DNA of 52,468 bases, from positions 1 to 52,468 of the forward strand of contig MWCL01000010.1 in assembly GCA_002070025.1 (NCBI GenBank), in the 5' to 3' direction. Position numbers and translations under genes: made by a program. The stretch comes from Spirochaetes bacterium ADurb.Bin215 (GTDB lineage Bacteria > Spirochaetota > Spirochaetia > Treponematales > Treponemataceae). The number at the start of each line of letters is the position of its first letter. Position 1 is the first letter of the stretch. The notes beneath the pieces are model-generated. The model was not told where the DNA came from. It saw only the letters and a list, made by a program, of their open reading frames with translations, and made no database searches. Of this stretch, positions 5,053 to 52,468 are shown one piece after another.

Positions 5053-5057
5053 TTGAA

Positions 5058-5284
5058 GTTCCGCTTCGCGGAACTTCACAGAACTACGTCAAGTTTCGCT
5101 TCGCGAAACTCCACAGTATCATTTCACGTTCCGCTTCGCGGAACTTCACAGAACTACGTCAAGTTTCGCTTCGCGAAACTCCACAGTATCATTTCACGTT
5201 CCGCTTCGCGGAACTTCACAGAACTACGTCAAGTTTCGCTTCGCGAAACTCCACAGTATTATTTCAAGTTCCGCAAAGCGGAAC
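5058..5284. repeat. Tandem array of 70-bp hairpin repeats
   Basis: Three near-identical 70-bp units begin at 5058, 5128 and 5198. A fourth, partial copy begins at 5268. Each unit carries two perfect hairpins: GTTCCGC-TTC-GCGGAAC and AGTTTCGC-TTC-GCGAAACT. The partial copy has the loop AAA instead of TTC. The array fills the space between tRNA-Gln and tRNA-Glu and would be co-transcribed with them. The only long reading frame through it (5032-5346) simply follows the repeat period and is not a credible gene. Confidence 0.9.
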
Positions 5285-5351
5285 TTTACTTCTTGCATAC
5301 CTCGTTGAGGTTTTTGTTTCATACATTTTTCAGGAAACGGTGGTAGGCAAT

Positions 5352-5422
5352 TTCCCCAGGGAGGATTCGAACCCCCACATGCAGAACCAGAATCTGCGGT
5401 GCTACCATTACACAACCGGGGA
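5352..5422 (-). tRNA. tRNA-Gln (anticodon CTG)
   Basis: The acceptor stem TCCCCGG/CTGGGGA contains one G-U pair. The anticodon stem is GCAGA/TCTGC with loop TTCTGGT (5386-5392), giving anticodon CTG, which reads CAG. The T-arm GGTTCGAATCC is present, the discriminator base is A, and no CCA is encoded. A strong promoter lies immediately upstream. No terminator separates it from the repeat array and tRNA-Glu, so one precursor transcript is likely. Confidence 0.93.
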
Positions 5423-5437
5423 ATGAGGTCGTGGTGA

Positions 5438-5466
5438 AAATTACCACACAGGAACTTCTTTGTCAA
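5438..5466 (-). promoter_or_regulatory. Promoter of the tRNA-Gln/tRNA-Glu unit
   Basis: On the minus strand TTGACA (5461-5466), a 17-nt spacer and TAATTT (5438-5443) form a near-consensus promoter. Its predicted start lies about 9 nt before the mature 5' end of tRNA-Gln. Confidence 0.8.
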
Positions 5467-5477
5467 CTATTCCGGTG

Positions 5478-6014
5478 CTATTCGCCGTGATACTCTATCA
5501 GGGTTTTCACCGGAACAGAATCGCCAAGAACGGCGGCGTAGGACAGGAACGGGAGGCCGACAACACCGAAAAATCCGGTTACGGTAGCGCCGCCCTGCTC
5601 AAGGACGTTCCGTGCAGCGTTGAGTGTTCCGCCGGTTGCGATAAGGTCATCCATAACCAGAATTCGCTGACCGGGACGCACGTCGGTCTGGTGTACTTCA
5701 ATTTCAGCTGTTGCATATTCAAGGGCATATTTACAGGAATAGGTCTTGCCCGGCAGTTTTCCCTTTTTCCTGATCAAGATCAGGGGAATCCCCATCCGTT
5801 CGGCAAAAGGCGCCGCAAAGATGAAACCCCGCGACTCGATTGCCGCTATGGCATCCAGATGGTCGTTTTTGTACAACTCGACCATGCGGTCAATACAGTA
5901 CCGGAACGCGGGAGGATTAACCAGTATTCCGGTTATGTCGTAAAAAAGAATCCCCGGTTTCGGAAAATCGGGGATTTTTCGTATTGCCGAATCAAGCGAA
6001 AAGGATTCCTTCAT
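5478..6014 (-). CDS. apt: Adenine phosphoribosyltransferase
   Basis: This cytoplasmic purine-salvage enzyme makes AMP from adenine and PRPP. The 178-residue length is normal. Landmarks are the N-terminal IPDFPKPGILFYDIT, the AIESRGFIFAAP loop, and the PRPP-binding motif VLVMDDLIATGGT (seen here as ILVMDDLIATGGT, about 114-126). It lies 29 nt downstream of tsaD, probably the last protein gene of the deacetylase-tsaD-apt unit. The tRNA-Gln promoter lies just inside or beside its 3' end. Confidence 0.95.
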   Translation of the reverse strand: MKESFSLDSAIRKIPDFPKPGILFYDITGILVNPPAFRYCIDRMVELYKNDHLDAIAAIESRGFIFAAPFAERMGIPLILIRKKGKLPGKTYSCKYALEYATAEIEVHQTDVRPGQRILVMDDLIATGGTLNAARNVLEQGGATVTGFFGVVGLPFLSYAAVLGDSVPVKTLIEYHGE

Positions 6015-6043
6015 GAGGGAAATACTAGTACATCGGAGGCTGT

Positions 6044-7090
6044 TCAGTCAACGGACGAAAGAGTCGGCGTGAATAATCGCCGTCCGTATTTGCGGAATCC
6101 TTCTACCCGGGCGCTGGTGTTTACCGTCCACGGGCTGGTTATGCCGCGGGAAAGATACTGATAGCCTATTCCGGCTATCATGGCACCATTGTCGCCGCAA
6201 AGGTTGAGCGGGGGAAAAATGCAGTTCAAGTCGGTTCGCTGAGCGAGTTTTTCCCGGAGGCTGCTGTTCGCGGCCACACCGCCGCCGGCGACAATGGTCG
6301 TCAGCCCGGTATCTTCCACTGCGCGGAACAGTCGGGTAAGAAGAATTTTTACGGCGGTTTCCTGAAAGGCGGCGGCTATGTTTTCCGGAGTCCGTTCATA
6401 CGTGTCATCCCAGAACTGGTCTATCTGGTTAATGGCCGCCGTCTTGAGCCCGGAGTAGGAAACATCGTAGGCATGGCCGTCACCATGGATGTTGGGAAGC
6501 GGAAATCGCGCAGCGCGGGGATCGCCGTTTTTTGCCAGACGGTCAATGATTACTCCGCCCGGATACCCGAAGTCATAGAACTTGGCAACCTTGTCAAAGG
6601 CCTCGCCCGCGGCATCGTCTATGGTCGTGCCGAGCACCTCAATGTCATCAAAACCAGATACCCTGCAGATAATGGTGTGCCCGCCCGAAACGAGCAGACC
6701 CAGATAGGGATAGGTGATATCAGTGTGCAAATGAGCCGCGTAGAGATGGGCAAGCATATGATTTACCGCAACGAAGGGTTTTCCGGTCGCCCAGGCGAGC
6801 GTTTTGCCGAACGTAAGCCCGACGAGTAATGATCCCATGAGTCCGGGCCGATTTGTTGCCGCTATTCCGTCAATCCGGTCAAGGGTGCAATCAGCTTCCC
6901 CGAGCGCCTGTTTTACTACCGGCAGTATCCATTCGGTATGTTTTCTGCTCGCTATCTCGGGCACCACCCCGCGGTATTCCTCATGAAAGGGGATCTGCGT
7001 CGCCACGACATTGCTGAGAATGGTGGTACCATCCACAACGACAGCGGCGGATGTTTCATCACAGGAGCTTTCGATACCGAGAACGGTCAT
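6044..7090 (-). CDS. tsaD: tRNA N6-adenosine threonylcarbamoyltransferase
   Basis: TsaD (Kae1/Gcp) transfers threonylcarbamoyl from TC-AMP to A37 of ANN-decoding tRNAs, working with TsaB and TsaE. The start MTVLGIESSCDETS is diagnostic. The metal-binding HMLAH is at 111-115, and the C-terminal GGGVAANS...CGDNGAMIA is present. The 348-residue length is normal. Its ATG overlaps the stop of the deacetylase gene by 4 nt, so they form one operon. tsaB and tsaE are not in the window. Confidence 0.97.
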   Translation of the reverse strand: MTVLGIESSCDETSAAVVVDGTTILSNVVATQIPFHEEYRGVVPEIASRKHTEWILPVVKQALGEADCTLDRIDGIAATNRPGLMGSLLVGLTFGKTLAWATGKPFVAVNHMLAHLYAAHLHTDITYPYLGLLVSGGHTIICRVSGFDDIEVLGTTIDDAAGEAFDKVAKFYDFGYPGGVIIDRLAKNGDPRAARFPLPNIHGDGHAYDVSYSGLKTAAINQIDQFWDDTYERTPENIAAAFQETAVKILLTRLFRAVEDTGLTTIVAGGGVAANSSLREKLAQRTDLNCIFPPLNLCGDNGAMIAGIGYQYLSRGITSPWTVNTSARVEGFRKYGRRLFTPTLSSVD

Positions 7091-8118
7091 TGATCTCCCT
7101 CGTCGCTTGCGGCGATTTTCGCGATGGTGGAAAGAGAGAATCCCTGACTGACCAGCTCCGGGTACATTTCTGTCAGAATCTGCGCGAGTTCATTCGACCA
7201 GACATGACCGATCATGATGGCTGATCCGCGCCGTTCCGCTATTTTCATTCCGCTGTATACCGCATCCATGATCGCATTGCGATCCTGGCTATTGTCCAAA
7301 AACACTGAGCGCTCCAAAATTTGCATGTTGCGTTCCCGCGCAAGCACCGGAGCTACGGTGTCCGAAGTTGTGCGGGAATCGAGAAAGTATAATCCGCGTT
7401 CCGATACGATATCGAATACTGCGGCCATTGCCGTTCTGTCGGCGGTGATTAATGATCCTTCATGATTGTTCAAACCGGTAACCGGCGCGATCTCGTCTAT
7501 ATTTTCACGAACAATCACGCGTATTTCGTCCGGAGTCATGCCCTTACGAATCGCTCCCGGGCCCGGGTCCATTGCAAGGTTTTGAGCCTGCATGGGTTGA
7601 TGCAGCAGGCATTCCTTCCCCGCCGAGCGGATCTTCCGCGCGGATTCCGCAGAATAGCGCAATCGGGGTAAAACGGCAATAGTACAGGGGAAAGGCAGCT
7701 CGAGAAAGGGTTGTAACTGCGCCAGATTATGTCCCGCGTCATCGAAGACAAACACCAGGGTTCCTTTCGGCTCGACGGGAACGGGTTTCTCGAGTGGCGG
7801 GGCTCCGGGAGACAAAGGGGTCGGCTGCCGGGCCGGTTGCTCCGGCGGTTTCGCGGCCGGTTGTTCCGGCGGTTGCTTTTCGACGGCGGTGCCGGAGGGC
7901 TCCCGCCCCGGACTTTCATCCGGCGGACGCTCAATCGCCACGGGAGGTACAAGAAGAAATCGTCCCGTCAGCAGCATGGCAGAGGCGCCGAACAGTATCG
8001 CCAGCAGTACTATATTCGTTTTAAGGGCAGAAGCTTTTTTTCGGGAAGTTTTGGTCCTTTTACGGTTTTGCGGTTTTCGCCGGGGAGTTGAACGCCGCGG
8101 CTGCTTCTTGCTGTCCAT
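7087..8118 (-). CDS. Divergent polysaccharide deacetylase (YibQ family), membrane-anchored
   Basis: A basic N-terminus rich in Lys and Arg precedes one transmembrane helix (about residues 34-54). A Pro/Glu/Ala-rich linker follows (about 60-105), and then a YibQ/DUF610-type divergent polysaccharide deacetylase domain. Recognisable parts are VFVFDDAGHNLAQL, IAVLPRL, LHQPMQ, NNHEGS and GHVWSNEL. The enzyme probably acts on envelope glycans, but no substrate can be named. I place the start at the ATG at 8118. The reading frame continues upstream only to a TTG that is itself part of a TTGACA promoter box. First gene of a unit with tsaD and apt. Confidence 0.85.
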   Translation of the reverse strand: MDSKKQPRRSTPRRKPQNRKRTKTSRKKASALKTNIVLLAILFGASAMLLTGRFLLVPPVAIERPPDESPGREPSGTAVEKQPPEQPAAKPPEQPARQPTPLSPGAPPLEKPVPVEPKGTLVFVFDDAGHNLAQLQPFLELPFPCTIAVLPRLRYSAESARKIRSAGKECLLHQPMQAQNLAMDPGPGAIRKGMTPDEIRVIVRENIDEIAPVTGLNNHEGSLITADRTAMAAVFDIVSERGLYFLDSRTTSDTVAPVLARERNMQILERSVFLDNSQDRNAIMDAVYSGMKIAERRGSAIMIGHVWSNELAQILTEMYPELVSQGFSLSTIAKIAASDEGDQ

Positions 8119-8127
8119 ACACCTATG

Positions 8128-8157
8128 AAGATACGGACAACAAGCCTCCGGTGTCAA
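8128..8157 (-). promoter_or_regulatory. Promoter of deacetylase-tsaD-apt
   Basis: On the minus strand TTGACA (8152-8157), an 18-nt spacer and TATCTT (8128-8133) lie just 9 nt before the ATG at 8118. The predicted transcript has a leader of about 3 nt. Confidence 0.65.
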
Positions 8158-8187
8158 CCGAAGAAGCGCCGCGGCAGGGGAAACTGG

Positions 8188-9015
8188 TTAACTGTACAGC
8201 ATTTCGTGAAGCTCCCGGGACCGTGCCTGGAGCTTCCTCAGCACCCGCAGTTCCACCTGACGTATTGTTTCGGCGGAAACTCCATACTGCTGACCGATAT
8301 TTTTCAGGGTTACCGGCTTTCCCGAGTCATCAAGATTATACCGTTTTATCATGATATCCCGCTCGTTTTCCTTGAGTCCTTCAAGGATTTGCATGATGCA
8401 GTCACGGGTGTATTGTTTCATGAACTGCTCTTCCGGGCAGTAGGTCCGATCCGGAAGCACATCTTTCAACGAGAGGGAGTCATCGTCATCCAGCTGGAGA
8501 TCAAGACTGGATACTGTTCCCGAACTGACGATGATGTCTGAAACCTCGCGGACGGGAAGACACAATTCGCGTGCAATTTCCTCGTTTGTCGGATGGCGTG
8601 AAAAACGCTGATACAACTCGGCGGAGGTCCTGCGGATTCGCCCCGCGAGTTCTTCTTTCCGGAAGGGAAGCCGGATCATCCGGCGCTTGTTCGCGATTGC
8701 CCGGGTTATCGCCTGTTGAATCCACCAGCAGGCATAGGTTGAGAATCGTACATTGTAGGAAAACTCGTATTTTTGGGCTGCGGTAATCAGCCCCATGTTG
8801 CCTTCCTGAATGATATCGAGCAGCGGCATGTCGGGCGCCGCGTATTTCCGGCCAACCGTAACAACAAGACGCAAATTGGATTCGATCAATTGTTTTCGTG
8901 CTGAAAGATCTCCTTCCTGAATCTTCTTTGACAGGGAGAGCTCTTCTTCGAAGCTCAGCAACGGATACTTTCTGATTTCCTTGAGATATTCCTGTAATGA
9001 ATCGTGGTCGTTCAT
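8188..9015 (-). CDS. RNA polymerase sigma factor, sigma-70 group 2 (RpoD/RpoS-like)
   Basis: A 275-residue sigma factor with region 1.2 (QEYLKEIRKYPLLSFEEE), core region 2 (LIESNLRLVVTVGRKY, DIIQEGNMGLI, FSTYACWWIQQAITRAI), region 3, and a region 4.2 helix-turn-helix (TLKNIGQQYGVSAETIRQVE). It lacks the long region 1.1 and the non-conserved insert of a housekeeping RpoD, so it is an alternative, RpoS-like factor. The ATG at 9015 is chosen because GGGGGA lies 5 nt upstream; the in-frame TTG at 9036 has nothing. A -24/-12 element precedes it, suggesting sigma-54 control. It stands alone between the deacetylase unit and the kamA end of the next unit. Confidence 0.93.
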   Translation of the reverse strand: MNDHDSLQEYLKEIRKYPLLSFEEELSLSKKIQEGDLSARKQLIESNLRLVVTVGRKYAAPDMPLLDIIQEGNMGLITAAQKYEFSYNVRFSTYACWWIQQAITRAIANKRRMIRLPFRKEELAGRIRRTSAELYQRFSRHPTNEEIARELCLPVREVSDIIVSSGTVSSLDLQLDDDDSLSLKDVLPDRTYCPEEQFMKQYTRDCIMQILEGLKENERDIMIKRYNLDDSGKPVTLKNIGQQYGVSAETIRQVELRVLRKLQARSRELHEMLYS

Positions 9016-9035
9016 AAAATCCCCCGCTGAATACA

Positions 9036-9052
9036 AGCAATAATTGTGCCAA
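9036..9052 (-). promoter_or_regulatory. Sigma-54 (-24/-12) promoter of the sigma factor gene
   Basis: The minus strand reads TTGGCACAATTATTGCT, with GG and GC exactly 10 nt apart. This matches the RpoN consensus TGGCAC-N5-TTGC at every invariant base. The predicted start is the first G of GGGGGA at 9025, giving a 10-nt leader that begins with the Shine-Dalgarno itself. No enhancer-binding site was identified. Confidence 0.7.
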
Positions 9053-9147
9053 CCGGCCAGTCGGTTTGTACAGCGGGTGTATTTCTATGTATAAGAACAA
9101 TAAATCTCTATTTGCGTAAATTTATGTACACCATCATGTATTATTTA

Positions 9148-10161
9148 TCATACATTCGTGAGGGGATACCTGTATACTTTTCCATCATTTCCCTGTATCC
9201 GGAGAGATACATCGGTCGAATTCGGCAATACCCGATCCGAAAGCGCCGGAACGGAAAGCGGGAATTTTCCCCCGCCGCCGGGCAAATCGACCGCGTATTG
9301 GGGAAGGGATAGACCGGAAAGCATATCGCGAAGTCGAAGCCAGATGTGCATACCCTCGTCCGGCGGAACACGAAACGACGCGGTTCCCGGCGCGAGATCA
9401 CACTGAAAAAGATACCCGGGCTTTACGCCGAGACACACCAGCTCGTGAAAGAGTTCGGCGAGCAGTTCCGGTGAATCATTCACGCCCCGAAGCAATACGG
9501 TTTGCGACTGCTGTGGAATTCCCGCGGTCCGCAAAGCGGTTATACAGTCCCGTTGGGCAGCGCCGAGTTCCGCCGGATGGTTTATATGCGGAATAACCCA
9601 CAGCGGCTGAAGCGCGGCAAGACGATGGACAAATTCGGGAGTAAACTTTTCCGGTGCGAACACCGGACCGCGGGTGCACAACCGGATGAGCAGGTCGGAG
9701 CGAACCGCACGCAGTTTTTCCAGGAACGCGAACAGCGAATCGGGCGGTGCGGTTAACGGATCACCGCCGGAGACGAGTATCTCGCGCACAGCCGGAGTGT
9801 TCGCAAGGTAGGCAACAATGGCGTCCTGTTCGGCTTCAGAGAGGAACCCCCGGGAGCGGGCGGTAAAGCTCTTGCGGAAACAGTAGCGGCAGTGACCAAG
9901 ACACTTGCCGGTAACGAGCGCAAGCACCCGGTTCGGATACTGGTGTACAAGATACGGCGTTACGAGGTAGCGCCCTTCCCCGAGTGGATCGGAGGTTTCT
10001 TCCAGCGCGAAAACATCCTCTTCCGGCGACGGTTCAATCTGCCGTGCAAGCGCAAGGCGCCCGGCACCGTCGGCTTCGTCGATCAAGCGCGCAAATGAGT
10101 GTGGTACAAGGCGGGGAAACCGCGGCAGACCCGCGTCCGTCCGCCAGTCGGCATCGGTCAT
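9148..10161 (-). CDS. KamA-family radical SAM aminomutase (EpmB-like)
   Basis: The radical SAM cluster motif is Cys87-X3-Cys91-X2-Cys94 in CLGHCRYC. The PLP lysine is Lys299 in PGGGGKFPL. Both are typical of lysine 2,3-aminomutases. The 337-residue length and lack of a long C-terminal extension favour the EpmB/YjeK type, which makes beta-lysine for elongation factor P, over catabolic LAM. That is inference, because neither efp nor epmA is in view. It is the last gene of a long minus-strand unit, and its start overlaps the M20 peptidase stop by 4 nt. Confidence 0.88.
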   Translation of the reverse strand: MTDADWRTDAGLPRFPRLVPHSFARLIDEADGAGRLALARQIEPSPEEDVFALEETSDPLGEGRYLVTPYLVHQYPNRVLALVTGKCLGHCRYCFRKSFTARSRGFLSEAEQDAIVAYLANTPAVREILVSGGDPLTAPPDSLFAFLEKLRAVRSDLLIRLCTRGPVFAPEKFTPEFVHRLAALQPLWVIPHINHPAELGAAQRDCITALRTAGIPQQSQTVLLRGVNDSPELLAELFHELVCLGVKPGYLFQCDLAPGTASFRVPPDEGMHIWLRLRDMLSGLSLPQYAVDLPGGGGKFPLSVPALSDRVLPNSTDVSLRIQGNDGKVYRYPLTNV

Positions 10162-52000: not shown

Positions 52001-52060
52001 ACAATTTTGGTAGCAGTCTTCAACAATTTCGGTAGCAGTTTTCAACAATTTTGATAGCAG
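52001..52060. repeat. 22-bp tandem repeats between IS66 and fabF
   Basis: Two full 22-bp units (52017-52038 and 52039-52060) and one 16-bp partial unit (52001-52016), cut by the IS end. The minus-strand consensus is CTGCTAYCRAAATTGTTGAA plus two bases. Each unit has a TCAA...TTGA quasi-palindrome. The unit at 52039-52059 is identical over 21 nt to 38448-38468 at the 3' end of murD. Confidence 0.85.
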
Positions 52061-52062
52061 TA

Positions 52063-52468
52063 TCAGATTTTCCCGAAAAGCAGCGAACAGTTCTGCCCGC
52101 CGAACCCGAACGAGTTCGAAATTGCCGCGTGTACAACCCGATCCCGCGCCGTGTTGGGCGTGTAGTCCAGGGTACAGTCCGGGTCGGGATGTTCATAGTT
52201 GATGGTGGGGTGAATAACACCGTCGCGCAGGGAGAGAATCGCGGCGATGGCGCCGATCGCGCCAGCAGCGCCGAGCGTGTGCCCGATCATGGATTTGGTG
52301 GAACTCACTGATAGCTTGTCGGCATGGGCACCGAAGGCAGAGCGGATGGCGAGTGTTTCTACGGTGTCGTTGGCGCGCGTGGAAGTGCCGTGCGCGTTGA
52401 TGTAGCCCACCGTATCGGGGGAAATTCCCCCGGATCGGAGCGCCTCAGTCATGGCGCGGGCGGCCTGT
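52063..52468 (-). CDS. fabF: 3-oxoacyl-[acyl-carrier-protein] synthase II, C-terminal part
   Basis: The last 134 codons of a KAS II condensing enzyme of fatty-acid elongation; the N-terminal part and nucleophile Cys lie beyond the window. Both active-site histidines are present in NAHGTST and [19 protein letters not shown] carries the conserved Lys, and the C-terminus NSFGFGGQN is diagnostic. Translation is on the minus strand and ends at 52063, two bases before the 22-bp repeats. Confidence 0.95.

Follow-up and report, generated by a model that had tools for sequence, protein, structure and literature searches.

Genes for factors of the sigma-70 family are transcribed by sigma-54 also outside the spirochaetes, as is the case for fliA of polar-flagellate proteobacteria and for a minor promoter of rpoH in E. 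coli. For rpoS of E. coli, no -24/-12 promoter of such a kind is known. The closest described system is the Rrp2-RpoN-RpoS pathway of Borrelia burgdorferi. The -24/-12 promoter of Borrelia rpoS was mapped by primer extension and is RpoN-dependent, and Rrp2 does not bind upstream DNA at this gene, nor does it require any (PMC1976401). Both the origin and the naming of Borrelia RpoS (BB0771) are disputed, and an independent duplication has been proposed (PMC6719511). Here, an RpoS-like sigma factor gene of Spirochaetes bacterium ADurb.Bin215 is compared with these systems. The window referred to below is the whole stretch of DNA that was analysed, i.e., the 52,468 nucleotides of contig MWCL01000010.1 from position 1 onwards, and coordinates without further indication are those of the window.

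The -24/-12 element and its conservation

The gene in question is located on the minus strand (8188..9015) and is predicted from Pfam, tree and synteny to encode an RpoS-like, group-2-type sigma factor of 275 aa belonging to a subfamily that we call A. It is preceded by the sequence TTGGCACAATTATTGCT (9052..9036, minus strand), in which GG-N10-GC, TGGCAY and TTGC, as in sigma-54 promoters, are all present. The C of the GC doublet is position 9037 and the ATG occupies 9015-9013 on the minus strand, which places the start codon 22 nt from the -12 C and 20 nt from where the 17-mer ends. The initial annotation, which had described a sigma-54 promoter with GG and GC 10 nt apart and all invariant bases in place, is borne out here by an exact match. 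When TTGGCAC-N5-TTGCW was searched for in the whole window with up to 2 mismatches allowed, TTGGCACAATTATTGCT was the single match and a perfect one. As approximately 6 matches are expected by chance in the window at this threshold, the count by itself is no proof and the case rests on conservation. In the whole genome of 2.6 Mb, YTGGCAY-N5-TTGCW has 8 perfect matches, TTGGCACAATTATTGCT among them, and most of these sit shortly 5' of a plausible gene. Judged from their translations, the genes behind other perfect matches are gdhA (glutamate dehydrogenase), a peroxiredoxin gene beside that of an enhancer-binding protein (EBP), hsp20 and a second sigma factor gene, while another match lies before a gene whose product is small and of exported type, with a ZraR-like EBP encoded 2 kb away.

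The element stands directly 5' of the sigma factor gene in all 11 same-genus orthologues that were found, at equal distance in 10 of them; conservation in close relatives, which the initial annotation had put forward as a check, is thus complete and extends far beyond the genus. GG-N10-GC precedes 23/23 orthologues from termite-gut and related spirochaetes, and 7/7 additional genomes of the same order or family carry the element. Across the class Spirochaetia, 91 of 96 upstream sequences score at least 7 of 8, the threshold used, whereas dinucleotide shuffles predict 0.19 and the opposite strand has 0; the 96 include one sequence that was later placed in subfamily B (L213) and two that are identical (L101 and L161). 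Four of the five low scorers are near-matches, with GC changed to GT in L194 and L205 and weaker boxes in L173 and L209, and only L204 among the 96 upstream sequences has no near-match. In the other classes of the phylum 12 of 13 relatives carry the element, and the same -24/-12 element is found upstream of Borrelia rpoS. Among the looser matches, mostly from other phyla, the element was present before none of the sigma genes (0/25).

By the usual -12 numbering from the C at 9037, transcription would start at G9025, the first G of the Shine-Dalgarno sequence GGGGGA (9020..9025, minus strand), which gives a predicted leader of 10 nt. In Borrelia, the rpoS start lies 14 bp after the GC doublet (PMC1976401), so that the position predicted here is reasonable, with an uncertainty of about 2 nt. 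The initial annotation had remarked on a 10-nt leader starting at GGGGGA; its arithmetic is reasonable within these 2 nt, but the trait belongs to the genus and is not particular to this genome, a short leader being predicted in 10 of the 11 members. GGGGG is kept in 11/11 members, in L012 despite a longer leader, and therefore looks like a feature of the Shine-Dalgarno sequence and not of the start site. Over the same 11 members, the Shine-Dalgarno consensus before the sigma gene is GGGG(G/A), and not the usual GGAGG.

Orthology and gene neighbourhood of the sigma factor

The protein shows Pfam matches to sigma-70 regions 1.2, 2, 3 and 4. With the NCBIfam model for RpoS (TIGR02394) it obtains 240.5 bits and does not reach the cut-off of 378.7. 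At the position of K173 in region 3 of the E. coli protein, our alignment has E in the window protein and N in Borrelia. In a tree of 72 rows, a branch supported at 100/99 has subfamily A and the Borrelia protein together on one side, and A and B are sister subfamilies, separate from both RpoS and RpoD of E. coli. A tree in which Borrelia was constrained to group with the paralogue B was 24.3 lnL worse, with a p-AU of 0.06 that is above 0.05.

The next gene of the putative operon (7087..8157, minus strand) specifies a divergent polysaccharide deacetylase (PF04748) and is the counterpart of the gene that follows rpoS in Borrelia, with 28% identity in a tblastn comparison with locus L317 (E 3.5e-26). 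It is followed by tsaD, involved in t6A tRNA modification (6044..7090, minus strand, by tblastn), which is 49% identical to its Borrelia match (L317; E 1e-105) and also has matches in loci L323 and L328. The last gene considered is apt for adenine phosphoribosyltransferase (5478..6014, minus strand, by ORF and tblastn), with 50-60% identity in L323/L328; other members of the class also have apt in their rpoS-like locus. The spaces between the four genes are about 30 nt, an overlap and about 30 nt, respectively, which would suit one transcript for sigma-deacetylase-tsaD-apt, the presumed extent of the operon. A survey of sigma-54 regulons from 2025 reports an enrichment of COG0533 (TsaD) in Spirochaetia, in passages that do not connect it with the sigma gene (PMC12316311); this enrichment would be explained by the operon seen here.

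Upstream of the sigma gene, on the minus strand at 9148..10161, a lysine 2,3-aminomutase-like radical SAM protein is encoded (PF04055 above the cut-off, LAM_C sub-threshold). This gene stands where other members have flagellar genes, which are missing upstream of the sigma gene from the locus in the window. The order flgI-flgJ-rpoS-deacetylase-tsaD is found in Borrelia (L317 and L324) as well as in genome G033 (L328), while genome G027 (L323) has flgF/flgG-type genes-flgJ-sigma-deacetylase-tsaD-apt and the window retains sigma-deacetylase-tsaD-apt. The family f19 was taken as Borreliaceae by its OspC/Vsp-family genes and the location of rpoS at approximately 0.82 Mb. One Borreliaceae rpoS match (G093:C1:826178-826969) contains a TAA in frame close to the 3' end, which is probably just the normal stop codon.

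Some repeats were noted in the window as well. Between the genes for tRNA-Glu and tRNA-Gln (window 5056-5286), an array of a 35/70-bp unit (AAGTTCCGCTTCGCGGAACTT...) is present, each unit being a small inverted repeat. Three tandem copies of a 22-bp unit, ACAATTTTGGTAGCAGTCTTCA, are located at 52001-52064 of the window, near the end of the contig; the unit also occurs near the start of contig C17, on which rpoN is located, and at one other locus of the genome (L001:60-78 and L061:773-791).

By gene order and tree, the sigma gene in the window is the orthologue of Borrelia rpoS, which argues that the relay was inherited and not independently recruited. The initial annotation had proposed a relay from sigma-54 to a further sigma factor as in Borrelia, which agrees with the wide conservation of the element and with the presence of rpoN and EBP genes in the genome (see below), but had supposed it to act on a different group 2 factor; this part is not supported by the gene order and the tree. 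The idea that such a different factor came under sigma-54 control independently of Borrelia could draw on an identity to Borrelia RpoS of only about 40%, on the long Borrelia branch and on the location of paralogue B, in many genomes, 4-14 kb from rrp2, as is the case for Borrelia rpoS. Against these points stand the gene order shared with Borrelia on either side of the sigma gene, the placement in the tree, for which the alternative costs 24 log-likelihood units, and the conservation of the promoter, which is unbroken between the two lineages; the reading is already disfavoured and we regard it as very unlikely. The location of B near rrp2 also raised the idea that Borrelia RpoS is the orthologue of B. 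It was rejected, as the genes flanking Borrelia rpoS match those of A (flgI, flgJ, deacetylase and tsaD) and not those of B (groES and a gene for a DinG-like helicase). Another view would be that TTGGCACAATTATTGCT is a chance match and that a sigma-70 promoter drives transcription of the gene. One weak sigma-70-like site (9/12) does exist upstream, at 9176-9147, and the stretch of 5400-9300 contains 4 such sites versus 2.9 expected; all invariant bases of the element are, however, kept across the phylum where about 0.2 sequences would be expected. As a complete explanation chance is already refuted and the probability that we leave to it is negligible, while a secondary sigma-70 promoter is possible.

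The upstream dyad, its candidate activator and the sister sigma gene

When the sequences 5' of the promoters were screened for inverted repeats, a dyad was found, TGTAT-N8-ATACA, which is present in the window as the exact match TGTATGATAAATAATACA (9137..9154, minus strand). It lies 102 nt before the -24 box and overlaps with the stop codon of the preceding gene. By its fixed register throughout the class it is a putative enhancer (upstream activating sequence, UAS). A second exact TGTAT-N8-ATACA lies within the upstream coding sequence (9194..9211, minus strand), outside the conserved register and of uncertain significance. Among 93 upstream sequences of subfamily A, 33 have an exact dyad versus 0.05 expected and 59 have one with at most 1 mismatch versus 2.0, the expectations being derived from simple mononucleotide shuffles. 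For most dyads of the class, the upstream distance from the -24 box is 99 to 116 nt. Two related genomes (L201 and L210), with the dyad at -108 from this box, have both half-sites changed alike to TGTCT-N8-AGACA, as would be expected of a real protein site. No TGTAT-N8-ATACA was present in the four Borreliaceae rpoS upstream sequences that were examined, which fits the report that Rrp2 does not need upstream DNA there (PMC1976401), or in the upstream sequences of subfamily B. The conserved dyad suggests that activation in the window may be the opposite of the enhancer-independent activation reported for Borrelia. Among the best sigma-54 sites of the genome, the subfamily A type of UAS was found only at the sigma gene itself and at no other target, and none was found near the hk2-rrp2 stretch examined, so that there is no sign of autoregulation. 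A strict UAS pattern, WGTATRAAAAWNWATACA, gave no match across the genus and was dropped as too narrow. In T. denticola-like genomes (G032 and G051; L214 and L216) the -24 box is TTTAGCA, with GG changed to AG, while the rest of the promoter is kept and the upstream dyad is exact; this name and 'T. pallidum-like' are judgements from gene content and family.

The presence of rpoN and an EBP, which the initial annotation had left to be checked, was established: contig C17 carries rpoN, a long ORF with a PF00309 match and an RpoN box, and the genome encodes six EBPs. One of these (G000:C51) is an NtrC-type response regulator that is 55% identical to Borrelia Rrp2 and belongs to the same clade; directly upstream of its gene lies that of an HK2-like PAS histidine kinase, with 34% identity to Borrelia HK2. 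The other five (C4, C35, C36, C16 and C30) are in part widespread. An Rrp2 orthologue is present in every genome of the EBP tree, with a 1:1 orthologue in 113 of 119 class genomes. In the 66 genomes with both genes readable and the arginine of the Rrp2 recognition helix kept, the helix is KTLHRK in 64, and a dyad in register was found in 65 with at most 3 mismatches (14 expected) and in 54 with at most 2 (2.3 expected). A changed arginine together with an absent dyad was seen in Borrelia (KTLHNK) and in genome G087 (KTLYQK), and in a T. pallidum-like genome the helix is KTLYLK and the sigma gene is absent; the association of arginine and dyad is a correlation over approximately three independent losses. 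Genome G108 (KTLQRK) has its exact dyad outside the usual register, and 3 mismatches occur in a few others. The T. pallidum-like genome G078 (L258 and L304) has kept rpoN and the Rrp2 orthologue, and neither sigma A nor sigma B was found in it at the threshold used.

In the relay proposed here, RpoN holoenzyme would occupy 9052-9036, and the HK2-adjacent Rrp2 orthologue would, upon phosphorylation, bind through its Fis-type HTH to the TGTAT-N8-ATACA dyad some 110 bp upstream of the promoter, loop to the promoter and open it. The RpoS-like factor would then be made, probably together with the deacetylase-tsaD-apt products, and would redirect RNA polymerase to a regulon of its own. That TTGGCACAATTATTGCT is the sigma-54 promoter of a spirochaete rpoS orthologue is highly likely, an estimate that covers the explanation as a whole, including the Rrp2/dyad relay; that the Rrp2 orthologue is the protein binding the dyad is, taken by itself, likely.

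Both promoter and dyad could be real and yet be served by another EBP, such as the widespread GAF-type C4 protein. Six EBPs are available, C4-type orthologues occur in several class members, and Borrelia Rrp2 needs no upstream site at rpoS (PMC1976401). The only EBP of Borrelia, on the other hand, is Rrp2, which it uses for rpoS (PMC11109971), Rrp2 is the EBP that nearly every genome has, and replacement of its helix arginine goes with absence of the dyad or of the sigma gene, so that we see in another activator a small, though real, possibility. Alternatively, the dyad may be bound by a separate repressor or an architectural protein, with activation as enhancer-independent as it is in Borrelia, where rpoS is activated without a dyad (PMC1976401); a palindrome by itself names no ligand. 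However, the dyad has a fixed position between -99 and -116 relative to the -24 box, as is typical of EBP sites, and the sigma-54 promoters of subfamily B have a different pair of dyads at similar distances, which makes this option an unlikely one. The HK2-Rrp2 relay acting through the dyad is the reading retained below.

The second sigma gene of the genome, sigma B (G000:C13:41210-42096; L016, L034 and L285), is a paralogue with a sigma-54 promoter of its own, which was found in 10/10 genus members examined and in most members of the class (L013-L024, L221-L240). The dyads upstream of sigma B are TGTGTCA-N3-TGACACA, often occurring twice, 40 bp apart, and the gene adjoins groES in several genomes. 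An hsp20 gene (L286:3171 (-), L245, L247 and L248) also has a sigma-54 promoter, with the dyad that is found at sigma B, which suggests a sigma-54-driven protein-stress branch. The receiver-less EBP C30 was considered as the activator of B and rejected, since Pfam detects no HTH in it. The gene between rrp2 and sigma B encodes a helicase according to Pfam. On balance, we lean towards an ancestral two-branch circuit in spirochaetes, in which A would be controlled via HK2-Rrp2 and TGTAT-N8-ATACA and B via the TGTGTCA-N3-TGACACA pair shared with hsp20, Borrelia being a reduced case without B, enhancer or Rrp2 arginine. If this is true, the loss of both the enhancer and the arginine would explain the unusual enhancer-independent activation in Borrelia.

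Comparison with known systems

By every sequence feature tested, the system in the window is a relay of the Borrelia Rrp2-RpoN-RpoS type that differs by the dyad and the sister sigma factor. Both have an orthologous sigma factor, an NtrC-type regulator, an HK2-type kinase and RpoN, and in both a -24/-12 promoter lies directly before the sigma gene and the deacetylase and tsaD genes after it. Borrelia lacks the dyad at about -110 that the window and most of Spirochaetia have, and its Rrp2 has Asn in place of the Arg of the recognition helix. Furthermore, the paralogous sigma B under sigma-54 was not found in Borrelia, which has Rrp2 as its one EBP where the genome studied here has five further ones. 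What is new is the TGTAT-N8-ATACA dyad, kept across the class and absent at Borrelia rpoS; a literature search, with most subscription journals outside its scope, yielded no report of the dyad or of class-wide conservation of the promoter.

These data are best explained if the enhancer-driven HK2-Rrp2-RpoN-RpoS relay goes back to the ancestor of Spirochaetia, and probably to that of most of Spirochaetota; Borrelia represents a derived case that would have retained the relay and lost the upstream site. The data support Borrelia RpoS as a member of an old, spirochaete-wide family that is found behind a sigma-54 promoter almost everywhere. The central virulence switch of the Lyme spirochaete is, therefore, very probably older than parasitism and looks like an ancient spirochaete circuit, not an invention of Borrelia. 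An enhancer-like site that is present in the relatives and missing in Borrelia offers a testable reason why Rrp2 has an HTH and yet activates rpoS without an enhancer, and harmless free-living spirochaetes can be used as models for what the switch originally sensed.

The other systems are more distant. RpoS of gamma-proteobacteria shares the group-2-type sigma-70 architecture (regions 1.2, 2, 3 and 4) but falls outside the spirochaete A+B clade, and the window protein is far below the NCBI RpoS cut-off and has E at K173. The sigma-54-driven fliA and rpoH genes specify sigma factors of different subfamilies, depend on different activators and are not orthologous to the gene in the window.
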